DNA of 64,000 nt from Uliginosibacterium aquaticum (lineage in GTDB: Bacteria; Pseudomonadota; Gammaproteobacteria; Burkholderiales; Rhodocyclaceae). The stretch spans positions 1,054,001-1,118,000 of the forward strand of contig NZ_JABCSC020000001.1 of the NCBI RefSeq assembly GCF_012972705.2, written 5' to 3'. Positions 24,639-36,266 of this stretch are shown piece by piece. Made by a program: the position numbers and the translations under genes. Each line of letters starts with the position of its first letter. Positions within the stretch are counted from its first letter, which is position 1. The notes under the pieces were generated by a model. The model saw nothing but the letters and a program-made list of their open reading frames with translations, did no database searches and was not told the DNA's origin.

Positions 24639-25460
24639 TCAGCTCAGGGTTGCGTAGAGGCCGGTCAGCTTGTCCATGACCTGGAGGATGTTCTCCGAGC
24701 TCACGGCCACGCTGTTTTCAAGATAGGCCTGCTCGTGCTGCTTGGCATTGCCGCGCAGGGCGTCGTCGAAGAACATCCACTGGGTTTCGGCGAGCTTGAT
24801 CCAGGATTCGGTGTCCTTGGTGTTCTCCGGCGCCATCTTGAGGGTCTGCATAGCGGCCACGAATTCCTTGCGTGCCGCGTCGAGGCCCTTGCTCACTTCG
24901 GGCGTGTTCACGCCGGTCACGCTGAAGAAGTAGAACTTGGACATGCGTTGGGACAGCATGCGCTGGCGTCCGGCGATGTTCACCAGCTTGCCGAGCGAGC
25001 CGCCGTGCAAGGCTTCAAGCTGCTGGGTGCCCTGGTGGGCCAGCGCCAGCACTTGCTCGTTGAGTGCGGCGACGGTCTTGAGGCCGTCATTGCTGGCCGG
25101 TGTGCCGACCACGCGCCGGTAGTCCAGCCAGCGGGTGGCCAGTTGCTCGTAGGTCTGGATCAGTTCCGGCGCATTTTTCCTGGCGGCGAACTCGCGCAGG
25201 GTCTGCAGCTGCTTGTCGAACAAGGCCATCGAATCGGCCAGCAGACCGCGTGCATCGGCTTCGCGCACGCCGCGCAGTTGCTGGGCATACAGCTTGGCCA
25301 TGCGTTGCGACAGCATGCGCTGGCGACCGGCTTGGTTGATGGCCTCCAGCATGCCGATCTCTGCCGGCTTCTGGGGGGCAGCCAGCGCACGGGCTGCCAG
25401 GGGGAGGGCGCCAAGTGCGAAGAGCACACGACGCCTGGTGGGGTTGAGGCTGCTGTTCAT
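24639..25460 (-). CDS. Exported protein with PilJ-type (type IV pili chemotaxis transducer N-terminal) domain
   Basis: 273 residues from ATG at 25460, with GAGG eight bases upstream. The N-terminus (TRRRVLFALGALPLAARALA) is a Tat-like or Sec signal with an ALA-AP cleavage site, so the mature protein should be periplasmic, with no membrane helix or signalling domain. The domain is duplicated: AGRQRMLSQRMAKLY at ~44-58 and AGRQRMLSQRMSKFY at ~163-177, each in a four-helix-bundle half. This motif is shared with PilJ and resembles the ligand-binding P-box of the nitrate sensor NarX. Lying between nirD and nasA it is probably a nitrate- or nitrite-binding protein; that function is inferred. Confidence 0.8.
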   Translation of the reverse strand: MNSSLNPTRRRVLFALGALPLAARALAAPQKPAEIGMLEAINQAGRQRMLSQRMAKLYAQQLRGVREADARGLLADSMALFDKQLQTLREFAARKNAPELIQTYEQLATRWLDYRRVVGTPASNDGLKTVAALNEQVLALAHQGTQQLEALHGGSLGKLVNIAGRQRMLSQRMSKFYFFSVTGVNTPEVSKGLDAARKEFVAAMQTLKMAPENTKDTESWIKLAETQWMFFDDALRGNAKQHEQAYLENSVAVSSENILQVMDKLTGLYATLS

Positions 25461-25527
25461 GTTGTTTTCCTCGATCTCTGTGCAGGGGCTTTGGGCGCAA
25501 TCCGCTTCGCTTGTTGCGCCCGACAAA

Positions 25528-25839
25528 TCAAACCGACAGCCACACCTCGCCGTTTTCGAGCTTGGCGGCGAAGGATTTGGTGCAGCCCACATCGGGGGCC
25601 TGGGCTTCGCCGCTGTCCAGATTGATCTTCCAGCTGTGCAACGGGCAGGTGACCTGCTTGCCATGCACGATGCCTTGCGAGAGCGGGCCTTGTTTGTGCG
25701 GGCACTTGTCATGCACGGCGAAGACTTCGTCTTCCGAGGTGCGGAATATGGCGATGTCACCGTGCTTGGCGGTCTTTACGACGCGCGAGCCGAGTTGCGG
25801 GATGTCGGTGAGGGCGCAGATTTTTTTCCAGTCGGACAT
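25528..25839 (-). CDS. nirD: Nitrite reductase (NADH) small subunit
   Basis: 103 residues with a Rieske-like fold. CPHKQGPLSQGI and CPLHSWKINL hold the two Cys-X-His positions, so unlike E. coli NirD (which lost them) this one may still bind a [2Fe-2S] cluster. NirD partners NirB in cytoplasmic reduction of nitrite to ammonium. Separated from nirB by a short ORF and a repeat. Confidence 0.93.
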   Translation of the reverse strand: MSDWKKICALTDIPQLGSRVVKTAKHGDIAIFRTSEDEVFAVHDKCPHKQGPLSQGIVHGKQVTCPLHSWKINLDSGEAQAPDVGCTKSFAAKLENGEVWLSV

Positions 25840-26049: not shown

Positions 26050-28500
26050 TCAGGCCGTGAAGTCTTCGTAAGCCGCGCGCAGCGTGCCCTTGTCGGCCAG
26101 GGTGCTGCGTTCGAGCCACGGGTCGGTGTAGTCCTGCAGCGCGTAGAGCAGGCGCTCGTAGAGTTCGCGGCGCAGTGCTGCGTTCTCGACGATCTTGCCC
26201 TTCACGTACTCCAGGCCCACGCGCTGCACGTAGTGCACCGTGCGCTCCAGGTAGAAGCCTTCTTCGCGGTAGAGCTGGAGGAAGGCGCCGGAGTACTCCA
26301 TGACTTCCTCGTCGGTCTTCACCTTGCAGAAGAACTCGGCGACTTCGGTCTTGATGCCGCCGTTGCCGGCCACATACAGCTCGTAGCCGGAATCCACACC
26401 GATCACGCCGACGTCCTTAATGCCGGCCTCGGCGCAGTTGCGCGGGCAGCCTGAGACAGCGAGCTTGACCTTGTGTGGGCTCCACATGCCGAAGAGCATC
26501 TTCTCGAGCTTCACGCCCATGTCCATCGAGCGCTGGGTGCCGAAGCGGCAGTGCTCGGCGCCCACACAGGTCTTCACTGTGCGGATGCTCTTGCCATAGG
26601 CGTGGCCGGAGACCATGCCGGCTTTCGACAGATCCGCCCAGATCTTGGGCAGGTCGTCCTTCTTCACGCCGAGCAGATCGATGCGCTGGCCGCCGGTGAC
26701 CTTCACCGTGGGTACGGCGTACTTGTCCGCTGCATCGGCGATGGCGCGCAGCTCGTCGGGCGTGGTGAGGCCGCCGAGCATGCGTGGCACCACCGAGTAG
26801 GTACCGTCCTTCTGGATGTTGGCGTGGGCGCGCTCGTTGATGAAGCGGCTTTGCGCGTCATCCTTGGCCTCGTGCGGCCAGGTGGAGATCAGGTAGTAGT
26901 TCAGTGCCGGGCGACAGGAGGCGCAGCCATTGGGCGTCTTCCAGGCCAGCGCGTGCATCACGGCCGGGATGCTGGTCAGGTGCTGATCGCGGATCGCCTT
27001 GCGAACTTCGCCATGCGAATGATCGGTACAGGCGCACACCGGCTTGGAGCTTGAGTCTGCCGGTGTGTAGGCGCCGCCCACGGTGGAGGCGATGATCTGC
27101 TCGACCAGGCCGGTGCAGGAGCCGCAGGAGCTGGAGGCCTTGGTGTGTTTGCGCACATCGTCCAGCGAGAACAGGCCGTTTTCCTTGATGGCCTTGACGA
27201 TGGTGCCCTTGCATACGCCGTTGCAGCCGCAGATCTCGGCGGTGTCCGGCAGGCTGGCGGCCTGGTTCTGGCCCTTGTGCCCCGCGTCGCCGAGGTGGCT
27301 CTTGCCGAAGAGCAGGTGATCGCGGATGTCGGCGATGTTCTGACCATCCTTGAGCATCTGGAAGTACCAGGAACCGTCAGCGGTGTCGCCATAGGCCACG
27401 GCGCCGACGATCTTGTCGTCCTTCACCACCACGCGTTTGTAGACGCCCGCCGCCGGGTCGGAGAGCACGATGTCCTCAGTGCCTTCGCCGCCGGAGAAGT
27501 CACCGGCCGAGAACACGTCGATGCCGGTGACTTTCAGCTTGGTGGAGGTGACCGAACCCTGATAGCGGCCGATACCGAACTGGGCGATGTGGTTGGCGGC
27601 CACCTTGGCCTGCTCGAAGAGCGGGGCCACCAGGCCGTAGGCGATGCCACGGTGGTTGGCGCATTCGCCCACGGCATACACGCGCGGATCGTAGGTCTGC
27701 ATCGTGTCATTGACCACGATGCCGCGGTTGCAGTGAATGCCGGCCGATTCGGCCAGCGCGGTGTTGGGGCGGATACCGGCAGCCATCACCACCAGATCGG
27801 CCGGCAGGCTCTCGCCGCTCTTGAGCTTGAGTGCGCAGACGCGGCCACTTTCGCCCTGCACCAGTTCGGCGGTGTGGGCGCCGAGGCGGAACTGCATGCC
27901 GCGGGCCTCGAGCTCCTTCTGCATCATGTTGGCCGCGGTCTTGTCGAGCTGGCGTTCCATGATCCACTCGCCGATGTGCACCACGGTGACGCTCATGCCA
28001 CGCAGGATCAGGCCGTTGGCGGCTTCCAGGCCGAGCAGGCCGGCACCGATCACCACTGCGTGCTTGTACTGGGCGGCGGCATCGATCATCGCGTCGGTAT
28101 CGGCGATGTCGCGGTAAGCGATCACGCCCGGCAGATCCTTGCCTGGCACCGGCAGGATGAAGGGATTCGAGCCGGTGGCGAGTAGCAGGCGGTCGTATCC
28201 GGCTTCCGTGCCGTCCTCAGCGAAAACCTTGCGCGCCTTGCGATCGATCTTGACGATCTTCTTGCCGGTCTGCAGGGTGATGCCGTTGTCCTTGTACCAG
28301 TTCCAGTCGTTGAGAATGATGTCCTGGATGGTCATCTCGCCGGCGAGCACCGGCGACAGCATGATGCGGTTGTAGTTGGGATGAGGTTCGGCACCGAAGA
28401 CTGTGATGTCGTACATGTCCGGAGCGATCTTGCGCAGCTCCTCGAGCGTGCGCACACCGGCCATGCCATTGCCAACCATGACGAGCTTGAGCTTTTCCAT
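26050..28500 (-). CDS. nirB: Nitrite reductase (NADH) large subunit
   Basis: 816 residues from ATG at 28500 (MEKLKLVMVGNGMAG); the upstream ATG at 28551 lies in the leader. Order: FAD/NADH domains (VGNGMAG, VVIGAGLLGLEAANG, VYAVGECANHRG), BFD-like [2Fe-2S] domain (CGCNGVC...CGSC, ~430-480), a second BFD-like segment (CAC...CASC), then nitrite/sulfite reductase repeats with siroheme/4Fe-4S ligands CVGAEHC and CPRNC (~620-680). It carries out six-electron reduction of nitrite to ammonium. First gene of a unit with the short ORF, nirD, PilJ-domain gene and nasA. Preceded by a structured leader with ANTAR-type hairpins. Confidence 0.96.
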   Translation of the reverse strand: MEKLKLVMVGNGMAGVRTLEELRKIAPDMYDITVFGAEPHPNYNRIMLSPVLAGEMTIQDIILNDWNWYKDNGITLQTGKKIVKIDRKARKVFAEDGTEAGYDRLLLATGSNPFILPVPGKDLPGVIAYRDIADTDAMIDAAAQYKHAVVIGAGLLGLEAANGLILRGMSVTVVHIGEWIMERQLDKTAANMMQKELEARGMQFRLGAHTAELVQGESGRVCALKLKSGESLPADLVVMAAGIRPNTALAESAGIHCNRGIVVNDTMQTYDPRVYAVGECANHRGIAYGLVAPLFEQAKVAANHIAQFGIGRYQGSVTSTKLKVTGIDVFSAGDFSGGEGTEDIVLSDPAAGVYKRVVVKDDKIVGAVAYGDTADGSWYFQMLKDGQNIADIRDHLLFGKSHLGDAGHKGQNQAASLPDTAEICGCNGVCKGTIVKAIKENGLFSLDDVRKHTKASSSCGSCTGLVEQIIASTVGGAYTPADSSSKPVCACTDHSHGEVRKAIRDQHLTSIPAVMHALAWKTPNGCASCRPALNYYLISTWPHEAKDDAQSRFINERAHANIQKDGTYSVVPRMLGGLTTPDELRAIADAADKYAVPTVKVTGGQRIDLLGVKKDDLPKIWADLSKAGMVSGHAYGKSIRTVKTCVGAEHCRFGTQRSMDMGVKLEKMLFGMWSPHKVKLAVSGCPRNCAEAGIKDVGVIGVDSGYELYVAGNGGIKTEVAEFFCKVKTDEEVMEYSGAFLQLYREEGFYLERTVHYVQRVGLEYVKGKIVENAALRRELYERLLYALQDYTDPWLERSTLADKGTLRAAYEDFTA

Positions 28501-28567
28501 GCTGTTCCCTCTGTTGAAAGCTGAGGACGTCTTGACATACGTCCTGTTCATAAATCTTCAGCTACAC

Positions 28568-28608
28568 CAGAGATCGCCCTTGACCCTGTCCGGACAGCTT
28601 CGTTGCTG
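28568..28608 (-). promoter_or_regulatory. Tandem hexaloop hairpins (ANTAR target) in nirB leader
   Basis: RNA on the minus strand. HP1: CAGC, loop AACGAA, GCTG (28608-28595). HP2: CAGGGTC, loop AAGGGC, GATC-(T)-CTG (28588-28568; one G-U pair, one bulge). Both loops have six bases with A1 and G4, as bound by ANTAR proteins. NasT is the likely ligand. Confidence 0.72.
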
Positions 28609-28655
28609 GCCGGTTGCGTACAGCAGGATTGCCCCGCCGTACTTGGTGCTCGATA

Positions 28656-28669
28656 TTGATCCAAATCAA
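28656..28669. promoter_or_regulatory. FNR/ANR-type box upstream of nirB
   Basis: TTGATCCAAATCAA, a perfect TTGAT-N4-ATCAA palindrome. Centred where an FNR activator could drive a start near 28621, just before the tandem hairpins; it also covers about -10 to +4 of the predicted sigma-54 start. Confidence 0.7.
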
Positions 28670-28685
28670 AGCATGCGTTGTGCCA
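28670..28685 (-). promoter_or_regulatory. Sigma-54 promoter candidate for nirB
   Basis: TGGCACAACGCATGCT on the minus strand: GG and GC spaced by exactly 10 bases, TGGCAC intact. Nearly the same string occurs before nrtA. Predicted start near 28659. Confidence 0.65.
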
Positions 28686-28802
28686 GGATTTTTAACTCAT
28701 TGAAATTCAAGGGTTGAGTGGTTTTGACAGGCCTTTTCTCAGGCCTTTGATGCACTCGCGGAGGGCGAGGATGCACGCTCTTGAAGCATGGCGCCGCACT
28801 CT

Positions 28803-30503
28803 TTATTTGCTCAGGATCAGGAGCAGCAGGAGCAGGTTGGCGATCAGCGACAGGGCGCACACGAGTTTCAGCAAGGCATGCGGATCGCGCTCCAGCAGCG
28901 GGCGCTGGCGTGGCACCGCGAGCGGGCGGTGGGCGCCGCGCTGCAGGGCCAGCAGGAATTCTTCGGCGGTTTCGAAGCGGCGCTCCGGCTCGCGTGCCAC
29001 GGCTTTCAGCAACACCGATTCGAGCCATTCCGGCAGATCCGGCCGGTAGCGCGTGGGCGGCACCGGGTCGCCAAAGCGTGGATGCTGGAAGGGTTCGATC
29101 TCGCCATACGGATACTTGCGGGTGGCGAGTTCGTAGAGCGTGACGCCAACGGCGTACAGATCGCTGGATTCGTTGGCGCGCGGGCGCTCGGCACCTTGCT
29201 GGAAGAGCTCCGGCGCCATGTAGGAAGGGGTGCCGGGATTGTTGATCTCGCCGAAGCGTTCGCCTTCGTGCTGGCCATCGGCGGCCGCTACGCCCAGATC
29301 GAGGATGCGCAGGCGCCCATCGGCACCCAGGTGCAGATTGTCCGGCTTGATATCGCGATGCACGATGGCCAGCCGATGCAGAGTGGCCAGCCCCTTGAGC
29401 AGGCGCTCTCCCGTCTCGGCCACTTCGGTCGCATTGAAGCGGTGGCCGCGGGTGAGGCGCTGTTTGAGGCTCTCCCCTTCGTGCCAGCTCATCAGGTAGT
29501 ACAGGTGGCTGCGCGAGGGCCGCGAGATCACCTGCGGAAAGGCCGCATCGGTGACCCGGCGGGCAATCCACTCCTCGTGGGCGAGTGCGGCGGCATCCTC
29601 CAGGTCGGCACTGGCATGCAGGGTCTTGAGTACGGCGATACCGCCGGCGGGCATGCGCACACGGTAGAGCAGGGTGATGCGTGAGTCGTGCAGCACATCA
29701 AGCACCTCCAGCCCGTCCAGGCTTTGCCCCGGTTTGAGGCGCGGCGGCAGCGGCAACTCGCGCAGGCGGGCCAGCGAGTCGCGCAGGGTGTCGCGCGGCA
29801 ATTCGCTGACACGAATTACCAGGGCCGTGCAGTTGTCCTGTGCGCCACTGTCGACCGCCCCGTCGGCCAGTGCGAAAGCAGCTTCCTGAGCGTCCGGATG
29901 GCTTTCGATGAGGCTCTGGATGCGTGCATCGCGCAGCGTGCCCCACACCCCGTCGCTCAGCAGGATGAAGCAGTCGCCCTCGTTCAGCTCGCCTTCGCCG
30001 AAGTCGATGGACAGATGCTTGTCGAGGCCAACCGCGCGGGACAGGACGGTCTTCAGCTCCGGGTGCTCCCACACGTGATCCTGGGTCAGGCGGCGCAATT
30101 GCCCTTCACGCAGCAGATAGATGCGCGAGTCGCCTACATGCGCCGTGATCCAGCGCCGGCCTCGCAGAACCACCGCCGAGAGCGTGGTGGCCATGCCGGC
30201 AGTTTCGCTGCGACGGGCTGACTGCGATACCAGCCAGCGGTTAGCCGCGCCGATCACCTTGTCCAGTGCCTGAGGCACGGCCCAGGTATCCGGCGTGGCG
30301 TAGTAATCGCTGAGCAGACTGCGCACGGTGAACTCGGCGGCTTCGCGCCCATTGGCGTGGCCGCCCACGCCGTCCGCGACCACTCCGAGCAGGCCTTTGT
30401 TGTCGAGCTCGGCCCCTTCCGGCGTGACGGCGCCGACGAAATCCTCGTTGCGGGCGCGCGGGCCAGTCAGCGAGGCGTGGCCGAGGGAGACGGTAAGGGG
30501 CAT
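28803..30503 (-). CDS. Fused PP2C phosphatase and Ser/Thr protein kinase
   Basis: 566 residues from ATG at 30503 (MPLTVSLGHASLTGPRARNEDF). Residues ~1-240 form a PP2C phosphatase with metal-binding motifs (RNEDF, GVVADGVGGHANG, AHVGDSRIYLLR, SDGVWGTL). Residues ~265-520 are a Hanks-type kinase: Lys of IAVLKTLH, catalytic HRDIKPDNL, DLG for DFG, and APE (YMAPELF). One C-terminal membrane helix anchors it. Such fusions accompany nas clusters in betaproteobacteria; their target is unknown to me. Downstream of narK with 171 bp between, which contain a perfect 13-bp hairpin. Confidence 0.9.
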   Translation of the reverse strand: MPLTVSLGHASLTGPRARNEDFVGAVTPEGAELDNKGLLGVVADGVGGHANGREAAEFTVRSLLSDYYATPDTWAVPQALDKVIGAANRWLVSQSARRSETAGMATTLSAVVLRGRRWITAHVGDSRIYLLREGQLRRLTQDHVWEHPELKTVLSRAVGLDKHLSIDFGEGELNEGDCFILLSDGVWGTLRDARIQSLIESHPDAQEAAFALADGAVDSGAQDNCTALVIRVSELPRDTLRDSLARLRELPLPPRLKPGQSLDGLEVLDVLHDSRITLLYRVRMPAGGIAVLKTLHASADLEDAAALAHEEWIARRVTDAAFPQVISRPSRSHLYYLMSWHEGESLKQRLTRGHRFNATEVAETGERLLKGLATLHRLAIVHRDIKPDNLHLGADGRLRILDLGVAAADGQHEGERFGEINNPGTPSYMAPELFQQGAERPRANESSDLYAVGVTLYELATRKYPYGEIEPFQHPRFGDPVPPTRYRPDLPEWLESVLLKAVAREPERRFETAEEFLLALQRGAHRPLAVPRQRPLLERDPHALLKLVCALSLIANLLLLLLILSK

Positions 30504-30541
30504 GGTGGTAGCGTGTGGTGGAGCGAACGTTTTTTTTGCGT

Positions 30542-30571
30542 GGCATTGGAATACTGGCGTATTCCAATGCC
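30542..30571. other. Perfect 13-bp hairpin between narK and the phosphatase/kinase gene
   Basis: GGCATTGGAATAC and GTATTCCAATGCC with a four-base loop. On the transcribed (minus) strand it is followed by ACGC and A8, not U, so it is not a terminator in that direction. May be an mRNA processing or stability element, or a protein-binding palindrome. Confidence 0.55.
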
Positions 30572-30674
30572 GGCTCAAAGCTACATCGAACGCTGCCGGA
30601 CCGGACGTATGTGCGTACGGCGAGGCGGCGCGTTCCTCATTCGCAAAGCATGCAGATCTGCAAGCTTGCCCGGA

Positions 30675-31883
30675 TCAGATCTTGGCGGCGACCGCTGCGC
30701 CCCAGGTGGTGCGCCAGCGGGTCTTTACACCGGTGAGGCCCAGCAATGCAGCCACCGCGAGACCGATGAAGATCAAGAGCCCCATCTGGTAGCTGCCGGT
30801 GTGTTGCTTGGCGTAGCCGAGGCTGGAGGCGAGGTAGAAACCGCCGATGCCGCCGGCCATGCCCACGAGTCCGGTCATGACGCCGATGTCCTTGCGGAAG
30901 CGTTGCGGCAGGAGCTGGAATACTGCGCCGTTGCCCATGCCCAGTGCGAGCATGGCAATCGAGATCACGCCAGCGGCGAGCCAGACGTTGCTGATGCCGG
31001 CGCTCACGATGGCAAGGAAGATCGCGGCCACGATATAGACGCCGGTGAGCATCTTGATGCCGCCGATGCGGTCTGCGAAGTTGCCGCCCATGGCGCGCGA
31101 TACGCTGCCGGCAAACACACAGGCCGCGGCGAAGTAGCCAGCGGTCTTGGGGTCCAGGCCGTATTCGCCGTTGAAGAAGATGACCAATGAACTGGCCAGT
31201 CCCGAGAAGCCGCCAAAGGTCACCGAGTAGAAGAACATGAACCACCAGGCATCGCGATCAGTCAGTACTTTGGCATAGTCGGCGAGGCGCTTGGGTGGCG
31301 GGCTGTTGGGGGCATCCTTGGCGATTGCGCAGTAGATGACGAAGACGATGCCGAGCGGGATCAGGACGAGGCCGAAGACATTGTTCCAGCCTACGGCCAT
31401 GGCCAGGCCCGGGGCGAACAGGGCGGCCAGCACGGTGCCGGAGTTGCCGGCACCGGCGATGCCCATGGCGGTGCCCTGATGCTCCGGCGGATACCAGCGC
31501 GAGGCCAGCGGCAGGGCTACGGCAAACGATGCGCCGGCCACGCCGAGGAAGATAGCCAGCACCAGGATCTGGGTGTAGCTATGGATGCCGAAATACCAGG
31601 CACAGCACAGTGCGCCGAGAATGATCAACTGGCCGATCAGGCCGGCTTTCTTGGGCTGGATCTGGTCGACCAGTACGCCCATCACCAAGCGCAGTAGCGC
31701 GCCGGCGAGCAGGGGGGTGGCGACCATGAGGCCTTTCTGGGCGGCGCTCAGTTGCAGATCCACGGCGATCTGTACGGCCAGCGGGCCGAGCAGCACCCAG
31801 ACCATGAAGGCGAGGTCGAAATACAGGAAGGCGGCGAGCAGGGTCGGCGTATGGCCGGCCTTGAGAAAGGATTGCTTGTCCAT
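30675..31883 (-). CDS. narK: NarK/NasA-type MFS nitrate/nitrite transporter
   Basis: 402 residues, 12 membrane helices. The nitrate signature motifs of the NNP family are present: AGAGNSGTVLAALFAPGLA in helix 5 and GMAGGIGGFYLASSLG in helix 11. MFS loop motif (GVLVDQIQPKKAG). Being within an assimilatory cluster it probably imports nitrate (or exports excess nitrite), alongside the ABC importer NrtABD. Its leader carries tandem ANTAR-type hairpins. Confidence 0.92.
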   Translation of the reverse strand: MDKQSFLKAGHTPTLLAAFLYFDLAFMVWVLLGPLAVQIAVDLQLSAAQKGLMVATPLLAGALLRLVMGVLVDQIQPKKAGLIGQLIILGALCCAWYFGIHSYTQILVLAIFLGVAGASFAVALPLASRWYPPEHQGTAMGIAGAGNSGTVLAALFAPGLAMAVGWNNVFGLVLIPLGIVFVIYCAIAKDAPNSPPPKRLADYAKVLTDRDAWWFMFFYSVTFGGFSGLASSLVIFFNGEYGLDPKTAGYFAAACVFAGSVSRAMGGNFADRIGGIKMLTGVYIVAAIFLAIVSAGISNVWLAAGVISIAMLALGMGNGAVFQLLPQRFRKDIGVMTGLVGMAGGIGGFYLASSLGYAKQHTGSYQMGLLIFIGLAVAALLGLTGVKTRWRTTWGAAVAAKI

Positions 31884-31924
31884 GGATCTGCTTCTCTCTG
31901 TGGGTTGGCTTGAAATTCAGCTAC

Positions 31925-31969
31925 CAGAGATCGCCGTTGATCCTGTACTGCGCGACGTCTTTGTCGTGC
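31925..31969 (-). promoter_or_regulatory. Tandem hexaloop hairpins (ANTAR target) in narK leader
   Basis: HP1: GCACGAC, loop AAAGAC, GTCGCGC (31969-31950; one mismatch). HP2: CAGGATC, loop AACGGC, GATC-(T)-CTG (31945-31925). Both loops have A1 and G4. HP2 and its flanks (GGCGATCTCTGGT, AGCTGAA) are almost identical to the nirB leader. Confidence 0.75.
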
Positions 31970-32019
31970 AATTGCACGCCCCGGCTTTTTACAGGGCTTG
32001 GTGCTTTGTTGAGGGTTTT

Positions 32020-32036
32020 AAGCAGATCCCGGGCCA
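32020..32036 (-). promoter_or_regulatory. Sigma-54 promoter candidate for narK
   Basis: TGGCCCGGGATCTGCTT on the minus strand, with GG-N10-GC spacing; one base off the TGGCAC half. Predicted start near 32010, 40 bases before the first hairpin. Confidence 0.5.
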
Positions 32037-32177
32037 TTTTTCACAAGAGACTGATTTGATTGGCTTTGATTGGCCGTCTGGGGCGCTGAAAAGGCCTTGA
32101 ATGGCTGGGCGTGCCCCGTTTGTGGGCGCGCGCTGCCCTGTCTTGAGGCTCGAGCGGGTGTTCGAGGGGCTGAACAA

Positions 32178-32210
32178 CAAAACGCCCGCAGGCTTGCAGG
32201 CCGGCGGGCG
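32178..32210 (-). terminator. Terminator after nrtD
   Basis: Arms CGCCCGC (minus-strand 32210-32204) and GCGGGCG (32189-32183), with further pairing inside, followed on the minus strand by TTTTGTTGTT. 24 bases after the nrtD stop, separating the nrt operon from narK. Confidence 0.8.
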
Positions 32211-32233
32211 CTCAAACAACTGCTGGAGGAGGG

Positions 32234-33025
32234 TCAGGCGGCTTTCCGGACTTGCTTCTGGTACAGGAACTCGATGATCGCAGCCCGGCAGCGGGTGTAC
32301 TCCGCGTCGTTGGCGAGCGTCAGGCGATTGCGCGGTTTGGCCAGATTCACTTCGAGGATCTCGCCGATGGTGGCGGCCGGGCCGTTGGTGAGCATCACCA
32401 CGCGGTCGGACAGCAGCACAGCCTCATCCACGTCGTGGGTCACCATCACCACGGTGGCGCCGGTTTTCTGCATTACACCGATCAGTTCGTCCTGCAGGGC
32501 GGCACGGGTCAGTGCGTCGAGTGCGCCGAAGGGCTCGTCCATGAGCAGGATTTTGGGTTCCATCGCAAAGGCGCGGGCGATGCCGATGCGCTGCTTCATG
32601 CCGCCGGAGATCTCACCGGGGTGTTTGTCTGCTGCATGCGCCATGTGCACCATTTCGATGGCGGCCATGGTGCGGGCCTTGAGTTTGGCTTTGCCTTCCT
32701 TCTGGCCAAAGACGCGCTCCACGCCAAGATAGACATTTTCGAAGCAGGTCAGCCAGGGCAGCAGCGAGTGGTTCTGGAACACGACGGCGCGCTCCGGGCC
32801 GGGGCCGGCGATTTCGCGTCCGCCACAGATGAGCGCTCCATCGGTGGGCAGGGTGAGGCCGGCGATCAGGTTCAGCAGTGTGGATTTGCCGCAGCCCGAG
32901 TGCCCGATCAGCGAGACAACTTCGCCTTCGTTGATCTGCAGGTTGATGTCACGCAGGGCGACGAAAGAGCCTTTCTTGGTTTCGAAGCTCATGCCGACGT
33001 TTTCAATCTGTACCAGTGATTTCAT
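32234..33025 (-). CDS. nrtD: Nitrate ABC transporter ATP-binding protein
   Basis: 263 residues from ATG at 33025 (MKSLVQIENVG). Walker A GHSGCGKST, Q-loop VVFQNHSLLPWL, signature ISGGMKQR, Walker B ILLMDEPFGALD and the H-loop His (VTHDVDEA). NrtD-like length with no NrtC-type C-terminal binding-protein domain, so one ATPase probably forms a homodimer. 11 bases after nrtB in the nrtABD operon. Confidence 0.92.
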   Translation of the reverse strand: MKSLVQIENVGMSFETKKGSFVALRDINLQINEGEVVSLIGHSGCGKSTLLNLIAGLTLPTDGALICGGREIAGPGPERAVVFQNHSLLPWLTCFENVYLGVERVFGQKEGKAKLKARTMAAIEMVHMAHAADKHPGEISGGMKQRIGIARAFAMEPKILLMDEPFGALDALTRAALQDELIGVMQKTGATVVMVTHDVDEAVLLSDRVVMLTNGPAATIGEILEVNLAKPRNRLTLANDAEYTRCRAAIIEFLYQKQVRKAA

Positions 33026-33036
33026 GACGGTTCTCC

Positions 33037-33969
33037 TCAGCTGTTGCTGTCGTAGCTGAATTTCTTGGCGATCTGGATCAGCAACTGCTCCAGCAGCAGG
33101 CCGACCAGGCCGATCACGAAGATGGCGATGATGATGTGCTCGACCTTCAGGTTGTTCCATTCGTCCCACACCCAGAAGCCGATGCCGACGCCGCCGGTGA
33201 GCATTTCAGCGGCCACGATGACCAGCCAGGCCGTACCGATCGAGAGGCGGATGCCGGTCAGCATGTAGGGCAGAACAGAAGGGAAGAGAATCTTGGTGAT
33301 GACCTTCCATTCGGAGAGGTTCAGGACCCGGGCCACGTTGAGGTAGTCCTGCGGTACGCGCTGTACGCCTTGAGCGGTGTTGAGGATCATCGGCCAGATG
33401 GAACAGATGAAGATGGTCCAGGTGGCGGCCGGGTCGGCCTTCTTGAACACCAGCAGGCCGATCGGCAGCCAGGCCAGCGGGGATACCGGGCGCAGCAGCG
33501 AGATGATCGGGTCCAGCGCGGCGCTGAGGAACTTGAAGCGGCCGATCATGAAGCCCAGCGGGATGCCGACGGCGGCGGCAAAGCCAAACCCGATTGCAAC
33601 GCGCTTGAGCGAGGACAGGATGTTCCAGCCGATACCCTGGTCATTCGGGCCATTGCTGTAAAAAGGATCGGAGAACAGGGTGACGGCGGCATGCCAGACG
33701 ACTTCCGGTGTCGGAATGCCTTTGTTCTTCATCGAGACGATGGCCCAGATACCGACCAGCAAGGCGAAGCCTAGGATCGGAGGGAGGAGAGCGCGCAAGG
33801 CGCGGCCGATTGGCTCGGCGTAGTTTTTAGGCGCCGGCTTGCTCGCGGCGATGGTGGTGGGGGCTGCACTGGTCATGTGATTCTCTGTCGTCCTGGCGGG
33901 GCTTGTGGGCTCGGCTGCGGGCGCCGGGTTGCTGCTGTTGGCGGTAAGGCTCAGGCTGGCTGCACTCAT
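33037..33969 (-). CDS. nrtB: Nitrate ABC transporter permease
   Basis: 310 residues. AGGAG six bases before ATG at 33969 supports this start, giving a ~45-residue Ala/Pro/Thr-rich cytoplasmic extension before the first helix; an ATG at 33876 is less supported. Six membrane helices, with the ATPase-coupling EAA-like loop (DYLNVARVLNLSEWKVITKILFPSVLPYMLTG). Close to the SsuC/TauC/NrtB branch. Forms the channel of the nitrate importer. Confidence 0.92.
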   Translation of the reverse strand: MSAASLSLTANSSNPAPAAEPTSPARTTENHMTSAAPTTIAASKPAPKNYAEPIGRALRALLPPILGFALLVGIWAIVSMKNKGIPTPEVVWHAAVTLFSDPFYSNGPNDQGIGWNILSSLKRVAIGFGFAAAVGIPLGFMIGRFKFLSAALDPIISLLRPVSPLAWLPIGLLVFKKADPAATWTIFICSIWPMILNTAQGVQRVPQDYLNVARVLNLSEWKVITKILFPSVLPYMLTGIRLSIGTAWLVIVAAEMLTGGVGIGFWVWDEWNNLKVEHIIIAIFVIGLVGLLLEQLLIQIAKKFSYDSNS

Positions 33970-34035
33970 GATCGTTACTCCTGATCGGGCGGGGCTGGAG
34001 CCCCGCCCGTTGACTGGATTCAGAACGCCCGGTTG

Positions 34036-35295
34036 TCAGGCCTTGATCTTGAAACTCTCGGCATACTTCTTTGGATCCTTGCCGTCCCACACCACGCCGT
34101 CGATGAGTTTCGAGCTGCGCATGTCGGACTTCGGGATCGGCGCCTTGACGATGGCGGCGGCCTGCTTGTAGAGCTCGATCTGGTTGATCTTCTTGGCCAC
34201 GCCCAGGTAATCCACGTCGCCCTTGAGCAGGCCCCAGCGCTTGTGCTGGGTGAGGAACCACATGCCATCGGAGAGGTAGGGGAAGTTCACCGTGCCGTCG
34301 TTGTAGAACTTCATGTAGTTCTTCTCCGACCAGGTCTTGCCGAGGCCGTTTTCATACTGGCCGATCATGCGACTGCGGATGACATCGGTATCGGTGTTGA
34401 CGTAGGCCTTGGCCGACACGGTTTCCGCCGTCTTGCTGCGGTTGGCTGCGCTGGCGTCGATCCACATCGAGGCTTCGAGAATGGCGCAGATCATGGCGCG
34501 CGCCGTGTTCGGATACTTGGCCACGAATTCAGCCGTGGCGCCCAGCACCTTCTCGGGGTGATCGGCCCAGATATCCTGGGTGGTGGTGGCGGTGAAGCCG
34601 ATCTTGTCAATGATGGCACGCTGGTTCCAGGGCTCGCCCACGCAGTAGCCGTCCATGTTGCCCACGCGCATGTTGGCGACCATCTGCGGCGGCGGCACCA
34701 CGATGGTCTTCACGTCCTTCATCGGGTTGATGCCCTGAGCGGCCAGCCAGTAGTACAGCCACATGGCATGGGTGCCGGTCGGGAAGGTCTGGGCGAAGGT
34801 GTATTCCTTGTCCTTCTTGGCAATCAGCTTGGCCAGCGAGGGGCCATCCACGGCGCCTTTGTCACGCAGTTCGTTCGAAAGCGTGATGGCTTGACCGTTG
34901 TGATTCAGGGTCATCAGGATGGCCATGTCCTTCTTCGGCCCGCCGACTCCCAGATGCACGCCGTAGACCAGGCCGTAGAGCACATGTGCTGCATGCAGCT
35001 CGCCATTGACCAGCTTGTCGCGAACGCCGGCCCAGGAGGCTTCCTTGGTGGCGTTGATCTTGATGCCGTATTTCTTGTCCAGGCCCAGTACGCTGGCCAT
35101 GACCACGGAGGAGCAGTCGGTCAGTGGGATGAAGCCGATGTTGACTTCAGTGAGCTCCGGCTTGTCGCTGCCGGCTGCCCATGCGCTGCTGGCGGGAAGC
35201 AGACCGCTGGCGGCCACGGCGGCGGCGCTGCTCACGGCAGCACCTTGCTTGAGGAAGCTGCGTCGGCTGAGGTTGGCATCGTATTTCTCCGTCAT
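34036..35295 (-). CDS. nrtA: Nitrate ABC transporter substrate-binding protein
   Basis: 419 residues from ATG at 35295 with GGAGAGAG upstream; an earlier in-frame ATG at 35397 lies in the structured leader. A Tat signal (LSRRSFLKQ) and AWA-AG cleavage site mean the protein is exported, so it is the binding protein rather than the cytoplasmic NasS sensor of the same family. Family segments include NIGFIPLTDCSSVVMA and HAMWLYYWLAAQGINP. Head of nrtABD. Its leader contains tandem hairpins and an attenuator. Confidence 0.94.
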   Translation of the reverse strand: MTEKYDANLSRRSFLKQGAAVSSAAAVAASGLLPASSAWAAGSDKPELTEVNIGFIPLTDCSSVVMASVLGLDKKYGIKINATKEASWAGVRDKLVNGELHAAHVLYGLVYGVHLGVGGPKKDMAILMTLNHNGQAITLSNELRDKGAVDGPSLAKLIAKKDKEYTFAQTFPTGTHAMWLYYWLAAQGINPMKDVKTIVVPPPQMVANMRVGNMDGYCVGEPWNQRAIIDKIGFTATTTQDIWADHPEKVLGATAEFVAKYPNTARAMICAILEASMWIDASAANRSKTAETVSAKAYVNTDTDVIRSRMIGQYENGLGKTWSEKNYMKFYNDGTVNFPYLSDGMWFLTQHKRWGLLKGDVDYLGVAKKINQIELYKQAAAIVKAPIPKSDMRSSKLIDGVVWDGKDPKKYAESFKIKA

Positions 35296-35325
35296 GATTC
35301 TCTCTCCGGGGTAATTGGAAGGGCA

Positions 35326-35386
35326 CCAAAAGAAAACGGCGCCACAGCTCCTTGGCTGCCGACTTGGCAGAAGAGCTGGACGCCGT
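35326..35386 (-). terminator. Attenuator terminator in nrtA leader
   Basis: 5' arm ACGGCGTCCAGCTC (35386-35373), 3' arm GAGCTGTGGCGCCGT (35350-35336; one bulge, one G-T pair), with an inner CTGCC/GGCAG hairpin at 35356-35370, then TTTCTTTT. The 5' arm shares bases with the loop and 3' arm of the second hexaloop hairpin (35377-35392), so the two structures exclude each other. Confidence 0.72.
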
Positions 35387-35412
35387 TGTCCATGCAAGCC
35401 ATCTTTGGCTCG
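35377..35412 (-). promoter_or_regulatory. Tandem hexaloop hairpins (ANTAR target) in nrtA leader
   Basis: HP1: CGAGCC, loop AAAGAT, GGCTTG (35412-35395). HP2: TGGAC, loop AACGGC, GTCCA (35392-35377). Both loops have A1 and G4; HP2's loop is identical to that of narK HP2. Begins about six bases after the predicted sigma-54 start. Confidence 0.78.
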
Positions 35413-35428: not shown

Positions 35429-35444
35429 AGCATGGGGCGTGCCA
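35429..35444 (-). promoter_or_regulatory. Sigma-54 promoter for nrtA
   Basis: TGGCACGCCCCATGCT on the minus strand: complete TGGCACG, GG-N10-GC spacing, one departure in the -12 element (ATGCT for TTGCW). Predicted start near 35418. Confidence 0.78.
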
Positions 35445-35560: not shown

Positions 35561-35574
35561 TTGATCCGAATCAA
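35561..35574. promoter_or_regulatory. FNR/ANR-type box upstream of nrtA
   Basis: TTGATCCGAATCAA, a perfect TTGAT-N4-ATCAA palindrome differing in one spacer base from the box before nirB. It lies about 150 bases upstream of the sigma-54 start and abuts the nasT terminator. Confidence 0.6.
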
Positions 35575-35687: not shown

Positions 35688-36266
35688 TCAGCCGAGCAGC
35701 AGATCTGCTGCCGAGATGATCTGCTCTGCCACTTCGCCGATCTTGCGGCCGCGCTCCATCGCCAGCTTGCGCAGGGCGTGATAGGCCTCGTCTTCGCTCA
35801 TGTTGCGGGATTTCATGAGGATGCCCTTGGCGCGATCGACCAGGGTGCGTTCGGAAAGTTTGCGCTGGGCTTCATCGCGCTCCTGGCGCAAGGCCAGGTA
35901 TTCCTCGAAACGCAGGGTGGCAACCTTGAGCAGGCTTTGCAGGCGCTCGGGGGCTAGGCCATCCACTACATAGGAAGAGACGCCGGCACGCATGGCCTGG
36001 CGAATGACGTCGTCCGCATCGTCTTCGGCAAACATCAGCACCGGGCGTGGCATCTTGCGGTCCAGCACGGCGAGGTTCTCTAGCGTGTCGCGGCTGGGGG
36101 ATTCGGTATTGATCAGTACTACGTCGGGCTGCAGCTGCTGCACCCGGTCGTGGAGTTCGATTGCATCGGGCAGTACCGCTGCGACCATATGGCCGGCGCG
36201 GGTCAGACCCTCGCAGATCTCCAGGGCGCGTTCCTGGATTTCGTCGATGACGAGTATCTTGAGCAT
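35688..36266 (-). CDS. nasT: ANTAR-domain RNA-binding response regulator NasT
   Basis: 192 residues. Receiver-like domain (1-125), coiled-coil (ALRQERDEAQRKLSER) and C-terminal ANTAR domain (~135-192: LVDRAKGILMKSRNMSEDEAYHALRKLAM), which binds tandem hexaloop hairpins in leader RNA and prevents termination. At the phospho-acceptor position the sequence is VVLINTESPSRDTL: Asn (AAT at about 36109) rather than Asp. NasT is normally held inactive by NasS until nitrate binds; no nasS is adjacent. Its own terminator precedes nrtA, so it is a separate unit. Confidence 0.93.
   Translation of the reverse strand: MLKILVIDEIQERALEICEGLTRAGHMVAAVLPDAIELHDRVQQLQPDVVLINTESPSRDTLENLAVLDRKMPRPVLMFAEDDADDVIRQAMRAGVSSYVVDGLAPERLQSLLKVATLRFEEYLALRQERDEAQRKLSERTLVDRAKGILMKSRNMSEDEAYHALRKLAMERGRKIGEVAEQIISAADLLLG

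Follow-up and report, generated by a model that had tools for sequence, protein, structure and literature searches.

Tandem-hairpin leaders at three nitrate and nitrite operons of Uliginosibacterium aquaticum: a predicted NasT RNA regulon with terminator and candidate Shine-Dalgarno outputs

The ANTAR target RNA described for EutV, NasR and AmiR consists of two stem-loops joined by a variable linker, with six-base loops that carry A at position 1 and G at position 4 (A1/G4; PMC3369931). Here we report on a 64,000-nucleotide stretch of the U. aquaticum genome (assembly GCF_012972705.2, contig NZ_JABCSC020000001.1, positions 1,054,001 to 1,118,000; hereafter the window), in which the leaders of nrtA, narK and nirB each carry such a pair. 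The leaders form a well supported local RNA regulon in which the predicted binding protein is NasT, the product of a neighbouring ANTAR gene. Features and coordinates are collected in Table 1.

Ramesh 2012 searched widely for the motif and listed matches at genes for nitrate and nitrite transporters and for nitrite reductase, suggesting that matches without terminators may control translation initiation (PMC3369931). ANTAR leaders at nas and nirB genes, and the suggestion of translational control, are already known. The window leaders share with that class the two stem-loops, the A1/G4 hexaloops, the variable linker, an overlap of the second hairpin with a terminator at nrtA and an ANTAR protein in the same genome, but differ in that two of the three have no terminator and that at least nirB appears to switch its Shine-Dalgarno (SD) sequence (PMC3369931). 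In Paracoccus, binding of the nasA leader by NasT and a role for hairpin I have been reported (PMC3795266, PMC5424462). The NasS-NasT systems of Paracoccus denitrificans, Pseudomonas and Bradyrhizobium (PMC3795266, PMC5424462, PMC7261876, PMC6759348) resemble the window in having a NasT homologue beside nitrate assimilation genes and hairpin leaders, whereas the window has no recognised NasS, three separate leaders, and a sigma-54-type element just before the RNA. Actinobacterial ANTAR RNAs overlap the ribosome binding site (RBS), and binding represses translation in mycobacteria (PMC8164766); ANTAR control is tied to the RBS in both cases, but the RBS of the actinobacterial RNAs is found in or on the target itself, while in the window binding is predicted to free it. 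Among the matches listed in our literature search (titles and beginnings of abstracts), no natural translational activation by an ANTAR protein was seen. The photoreceptor NmPAL carries an ANTAR domain. Its light-induced translation, in which protein binding refolds an RNA and induces translation as predicted here, is engineered and belongs to no natural nitrate regulon (PMC11381354).

Two consecutive hairpins (P1, then P2) with stems of at least 3 bp were confirmed on the minus strand of all three leaders where the sequence-only reading had placed them, and all six of their six-base loops carry A1 and G4. A loose tandem motif (ANNGNN loops, stems of at least 4 bp, linker up to 20) had 6 occurrences in the window, where 40 shuffles averaged 1.5; this enrichment was only mild, and the motif was dropped as stand-alone evidence. 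With a linker of up to 12 there were 3 occurrences against 1.0, a number reached by 20 of 300 shuffles. When the loop was narrowed to AANGNN with the same linker, a form set after the sites were known, 3 occurrences stood against 0.03 expected and no shuffle of 300 reached 3.

Conservation of the leaders was assessed in an alignment (A3) of 24 leaders, the window's three and 21 from other genomes. Compensatory change, which the sequence-only reading had called for in related genomes, was found in both helices. Across P1 and P2, 91.6% of cells were paired compared with 75.5% in shuffled alignments, nine pairs had changed on both sides (5.0 in shuffles), and there were 46 double-change cells (11.8 in shuffles). 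The covariation score was 0.562, against 0.221 for shuffled alignments and 0.035-0.170 for slid structures. Loop positions A1, A2 and G4 were invariant in both hairpins in all 24 rows. The outermost P2 pair (columns 31-46) was unsupported, being unpaired in 15 of the 23 rows with letters there.

A covariance search, also proposed by the sequence-only reading, was run with a model (R1) and returned the window's three sites as the top three in their own genome (E-values 1.6e-6, 5.3e-5 and 4.9e-4; next match 0.36). Among 150 genomes of the family, R1 matched at E<=0.5 in 90 and at E<=0.01, taken as a strong site, in 57 (65 sites). An ANTAR protein was encoded in 92 of the 150 genomes and in 57/57 of those with a strong site (hypergeometric P = 2.4e-17, without correction for relatedness). 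Strong sites lay close to the ANTAR gene, 52/65 within 1 kb and 59/65 within 15 kb.

NasT was the one ANTAR protein found in the U. aquaticum genome, and the position of its gene upstream of all three leaders on the same strand was borne out by the coordinates. In EutV, R142, E160 and Y164 are reported to contact the flipped G4, M172 is essential, and N173 and R175 belong to a triple mutant with binding abolished (PMC8934654). When NasT was aligned with EutV (6wsh), the first four residues were kept as R140, E158, Y162 and M170; EutV K143 aligns with T141. Helix covariation, the co-occurrence and proximity of ANTAR genes, and these G4-reading residues together support the earlier claim that the leaders are ANTAR targets, and NasT very probably recognises the hairpin pairs of all three operons. 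Several points weigh against this. EutV N173 and R175 are not kept, being aligned with NasT E171 and G173, and R1 was trained partly on the window's three leaders. In a Bradyrhizobium nasT mutant under denitrifying conditions, narK and bjgb rose despite hairpins predicted upstream of them (PMC6759348).

The sequence-only reading had also placed a sigma-54-type promoter 6-50 bases before the hairpins of each leader. The element was present before all three, while the distance was partly off, with gaps of about 16 (nrtA), 51-54 (narK) and 61 (nirB) bases. The pattern TGGC[AC]C-N5-NTGC, which was fitted to these three elements, matched only them in the window (0.4 expected). With a slightly looser pattern, counting the last match within 100 nt, a similar element was found in 38/38 selected nrtA leaders where 1.0 was expected from shuffles, at a median gap of 19 nt (16 to 56) from the four innermost base pairs of P1. 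Sigma-54 elements stand at a usual distance from the transcription start and, because this gap is short, the nrtA RNA probably starts a few bases upstream of P1. Two perfect FNR-like boxes (TTGATN4ATCAA), where chance would give 0.03 across the window, were also observed at 28656-28669, directly adjoining the nirB sigma-54 element, and at 35561-35574, before nrtA. Such a box was seen in just five of the 38 nrtA leaders, those of the same genus, the window's own included.

A search of the window against Rfam at gathering thresholds gave no match. Below the gathering score of 43.2, the narK RNA family RF03032 scored 34.1 on the narK leader and 27.7 on the nrtA leader; the nirB leader gave no RF03032 match. 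Other sub-threshold matches (RFPL3-AS1, xerDC, ctRNA, sR-tMet, Erse) were taken as chance. The RF03032 consensus runs from GGCaC-N5-UUGCU through a 7-bp hairpin, GGcagCC-AACGGC-GGcugCC, to CGAC-AAAGAC-GUCG; it is a promoter-like block followed by two hexaloop hairpins, one of them drawn by Rfam. Both window matches show this anatomy (promoter-like 5' block, AACGGC-loop hairpin, 3' GACAAAGACGUC block), with register shifts. The family and the window leaders are alike in joining a sigma-54-type promoter to a tandem ANTAR hairpin, but the window matches lie below threshold, nirB is unmatched, and the family as drawn by Rfam has a single hairpin and takes in the promoter-like block. In the U. aquaticum genome and 60 relatives, RF03032 matched at E<=0.05 in 25/61 and above the cut-off in 0/61. 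Among 369 genomes of the class it matched at E<=1e-4 in six, two of which (L298, L299) exceeded the gathering score; these two sites lie upstream of narK homologues and show tandem A1/G4 hairpins, then a terminator-like stretch. A tandem pair was found by scan at five of the six loci, the sixth (L300) being alike by eye, and an ANTAR protein was encoded in 6/6 of these genomes. A link between RF03032 and ANTAR proteins was not found in the literature searched; the original RF03032 description may say more.

The leaders appear to differ in their expression platforms. At nrtA an intrinsic terminator takes up the loop and 3' arm of P2, and terminator and P2 are therefore mutually exclusive. By the terminator test, neither the narK leader nor the nirB leader of the window has a P2-overlapping hairpin followed by a U-run. 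Two sets of leaders were compared. The nrtA set comprised 40 leaders hand-picked from 62 candidates, with a score that rewarded a terminator or promoter, plus L004 and L016; some had their hairpin pair re-chosen by eye, and loci with no tandem pair in the scan and outside the set include L049, L051, L055, L059 and L104. From the 40, L068 (P2 mis-set) and L074 (a narK leader) were removed, leaving 38 with the window's own. The second set came from a GATC-6-GATC regular expression with 25 matches, of which 17 were kept and joined by two leaders from L038, giving 19 for a duplex test; L158 was then dropped, leaving 18 GATC-type nirB/narK leaders in 13 clusters for the terminator and SD-openness tests. 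Within these selected sets the split is firm, the P2-overlapping terminator being present at nrtA (38/38) and rare at GATC-type nirB/narK leaders (1/18).

In place of a terminator, the nirB leader has a predicted anti-SD strand that overlaps the end of P2 and pairs with bases up to the SD (duplex -17.3 kcal/mol, -19.4 with the loop). In the fold of the narK leader the 3' arm of P2 is overlapped by a shorter predicted anti-SD, and the 5' arm GGATC has an alternative partner at 31888-31884. Among the GATC-type leaders, where the 3' arm of P2 with its adjoining downstream bases is able to pair with the SD region, P1 with an A1/G4 loop was found in 17/18 and a P2 loop with G4 in 18/18. Their native anti-SD/SD duplexes averaged -14.6 kcal/mol compared with -12.35 when strands were swapped between species (p 0.013; 13 clusters), and with the loop -17.0 compared with -13.6 (p 0.0013; 13 clusters). 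P2 had a probability of 0.13 or less in free RNA in 14/18 leaders, because, by prediction, its bases pair elsewhere. When P2 was forced, the predicted unpaired fraction of the SD rose from 0.28 to 0.44; with shuffled spacers it was 0.39 free and changed by just 0.02, and in 10/18 leaders no more than 5% of spacer shuffles matched the observed gain. As a control, P2 was forced in nine nrtA leaders, those of the 38 with an NrtA match starting at residue 1 or 2 (the L012 start being one codon off), and the SD was left unopened (mean 0.48 to 0.40). When the longer window leaders were folded with P1 and P2 imposed together, the SD stretch opened most in narK (0.33 to 0.77) and less in nirB (0.43 to 0.62). 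Nine further nirB/narK leaders, treated as a second group, have like topology, with other sequences in some, and 6/9 gained at least 0.09 in SD opening; here spacer shuffles say little, as the SD side has P2 itself for its pairing partner, and the start codon of L214 was reset. The terminator test covered the 38 nrtA and 18 GATC-type leaders; a TTTT run is held by 3/9 of the second group.

Several results weigh against an SD switch. The GATC-type leaders were chosen by pattern and eye, eight matches having been dropped by eye as coding or lacking G4 or P1; L155 has no P1 by scan and A1 is missing from the P2 loop in 4/18 (L154, L162, L163, L164). The native duplex was the best of its row in just 4/13 clusters, and in 1/13 with the loop. 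In 8/18 leaders more than 5% of shuffles were at or above the observed gain, and L155, L162 and L170 had no useful gain (two near nil, L170 a loss). The window narK leader failed both controls: 27% of spacer shuffles reached its gain, and its z was +1.0 and +0.5 against shuffled SD regions. Forcing P1 and P2 together opened the nrtA SD somewhat as well (0.52 to 0.67) and closed the nirB start codon (0.72 to 0.58). In alignments A2 and A4 the anti-SD/SD pairing shifts register between lineages and so does not lend itself to column-wise covariation. In the second group 3/9 had about no gain, and no more than 5% of spacer shuffles reached the gain in just 2/9. By scan and eye the motif was present in at least 22/90 nirB leaders of the family (15 of the GATC type, 5 from the second group, and 2 terminator-type, L167 and L217) and at least 4/50 narK leaders (L118, L131, L132, and L142, whose P2 loop has G at position 1), and is missing from most of those examined. 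Taken as a whole, we have moderate confidence that at nirB the predicted alternative helix would hide the SD and exclude P2, and put the same switch forward weakly for narK. By eye, nirB lies directly after nrtC in two same-genus genomes (L149, L150), and in Ca. Dactylopiibacterium (L038) both narK and nirB leaders are kept with changed stems.

We think it probable that these sigma-54-driven operons have NasT-bound leaders that work by antitermination at nrtABC and, at nirB and perhaps narK, by freeing the SD. The three operons would be transcribed from the sigma-54 promoters, each leader carrying the two-hairpin ANTAR target, and free NasT would bind the leaders and hold P1 and P2. At nrtABC, P2 held by NasT would block the terminator; at nirB, and possibly narK, formation of P2 would take bases from the SD-hiding helix and turn translation on. 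The outcome would be an AND gate of nitrogen limitation (presumably through sigma-54 and NtrC) and nitrate (presumably through NasT). In this scheme we infer NasT binding, the direction of regulation and the nitrate signal; hairpins, covariation, ANTAR co-occurrence, terminator overlap, promoter conservation and the predicted SD switch were computed. To the sequence-only reading the analysis adds the RF03032 link, the division of leaders into terminator and candidate SD platforms, and the lack of a recognised NasS.

Antitermination alone at all three leaders, with weak or unusual narK and nirB terminators missed by the scan, is a rival reading. Antitermination is the established mode of proteobacterial NasT/NasR, Romeo 2012 is said to have found nirBD of P. 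aeruginosa controlled in this way, and by eye some nirB leaders (L217, L167, L024) do have a terminator after P2. We regard this rival as unlikely, however, since the narK and nirB leaders of the window and 17/18 GATC-type leaders gave no P2-overlapping hairpin with a U-run, and since the SD-hiding helix exceeds swapped or shuffled controls in average strength and was not seen in nrtA leaders. NasT might instead bind all three leaders and act otherwise at narK and nirB, for example through Rho-dependent termination or RNA decay. The SD switch is after all a thermodynamic prediction, the window narK leader fails its control, and leaders vary; but the predicted rarity of P2 in free RNA (14/18 leaders) and the opening of the SD on average when P2 is forced make this distinctly unlikely. 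That the hairpins are chance or DNA operators, and no RNA targets, draws on the mild enrichment of the loose motif (6 vs 1.5, and 3 vs 1.0 at linker 12). It is barely credible given the loop constraint and helix covariation, the ANTAR co-occurrence and the place of the hairpins just downstream of sigma-54 elements.

NasS, a signal-less NrtA-like protein, was not recognised beside nasT or elsewhere in the genome by PF13379 search, which counts against the nitrate arm of the AND gate. The neighbour of nasT is nrtA, whose product has a twin-arginine-like signal, and the other three PF13379 matches of the genome (L033, L034, L035) were rejected as NasS on their signal-like N-termini (by eye). NIT-domain proteins were sought as alternative nitrate sensors; the genome encodes two, both on contigs other than that of the window. 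The phospho-acceptor column of NasT was not conserved, with N, H, Q, E or D among 15 sequences. In a survey of 80 nasT loci, 46 had an NrtA-like match so close behind nasT that the signal peptide must be missing, as for NasS; at L079 and L085 the match overlaps the end of nasT, and L070 had no NrtA-like match. At 31 loci, including Rhodocyclales and many Burkholderiales, the first NrtA-like gene lay further downstream and was mostly a true nrtA (at least 64% identity) behind a leader; at L041 and L097 the gap was big enough for another gene. Twin-arginine NrtA was commoner at the NasS-less loci (15/31 vs 7/21 by regular expression, confounded by phylogeny).

Twin-arginine precursors fold in the cytoplasm. 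A further reading is that the NasS-less NasT, which would control nrtABC by antitermination and activate translation of nirB and narK by freeing the SD, senses nitrate through the NrtA precursor; NasS elsewhere holds NasT, and here the twin-arginine precursor would do so. We consider this improbable. In the sister-genus locus L038 (10588-11900) a signal-less NrtA-like open reading frame (start about 10713) stands directly behind nasT in a NasS-like arrangement, with 55% identity to the window NrtA over the matched part, and this fits a reading of NrtA as a substitute for NasS.

Table 1. Genes, leader hairpins, promoter elements and predicted alternative structures of the nrtA, narK and nirB region (window coordinates)
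Feature	Positions	Strand	Basis
nasT, ANTAR response-regulator-like RNA-binding protein	35688..36266	-	Pfam ANTAR 74.1 bits, Response_reg 31.7
nrtA, nitrate-binding protein, opens nrtABC	34036..35295	-	Pfam NMT1_2; twin-arginine-like signal by eye
nrtB, permease	33037..33969	-	TIGR01183 above cut-off
nrtC, ATP-binding protein	32234..33025	-	TIGR01184 above cut-off
narK, nitrate/nitrite MFS transporter	30675..31883	-	MFS_1
nirB, nitrite reductase large subunit	26050..28500	-	TIGR02374 above cut-off
nrtA sigma-54-type -24/-12 element, TGGCACGCCCCATGCT	35429..35444	-	pattern match
nrtA leader P1, CGAGCC-AAAGAT-GGCTTG, loop AAAGAT	35395..35412	-	motif scan; covariation
nrtA leader P2, TGGAC-AACGGC-GTCCA, loop AACGGC	35377..35392	-	motif scan; covariation
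nrtA intrinsic terminator, 5' arm holds P2 loop and 3' arm, ends in TTTTCTTTT	35328..35387	-	fold; duplex -26.8 kcal/mol
narK sigma-54-type element, TGGCCCGGGATCTGCT	32021..32036	-	pattern match
narK leader P1, CGAC-AAAGAC-GTCG, loop AAAGAC	31953..31966	-	motif scan
narK leader P2, GGATC-AACGGC-GATCT, loop AACGGC	31928..31943	-	motif scan
narK predicted anti-SD, TCTCTG, overlaps P2 3' arm, pairs with CAGAGA 31900-31895	31925..31930	-	fold
nirB sigma-54-type element, TGGCACAACGCATGCT	28670..28685	-	pattern match
nirB leader P1, CAGC-AACGAA-GCTG, loop AACGAA	28595..28608	-	motif scan
nirB leader P2, GGTC-AAGGGC-GATC, loop AAGGGC	28572..28585	-	motif scan
nirB predicted anti-SD strand, TCTCTGGTGTAGCTGA, overlaps P2 end, pairs with bases up to SD	28558..28573	-	fold; duplex
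nirB SD, AGAGGGA	28506..28512	-	sequence; fold

With respect to the neighbouring genes, the best NCBIfam NarK family for the narK product was TIGR00886 at 280.6 bits, under its cut-off of 311.7. Between narK and nirB lies a fused PP2C phosphatase-Ser/Thr kinase gene (28803-30503). A PilJ-domain protein with an exported-looking N-terminus is encoded at 24639-25760, with the nirB region on one side and a nasC-like nitrate reductase gene on the other; by eye it carries two copies of the motif RQRMLSQRM, which we take to resemble the P-box of NarX.

Neither a dual output of this kind nor the RF03032 link was found in the literature searched. For RF03032, filed only as a cis-regulatory RNA, the leaders offer a candidate function as a NasT target coupled to a sigma-54 promoter. 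Many betaproteobacterial nasT genes have no adjoining NasS gene. These data suggest that the same RNA module may serve one ANTAR protein for both antitermination and translational activation.

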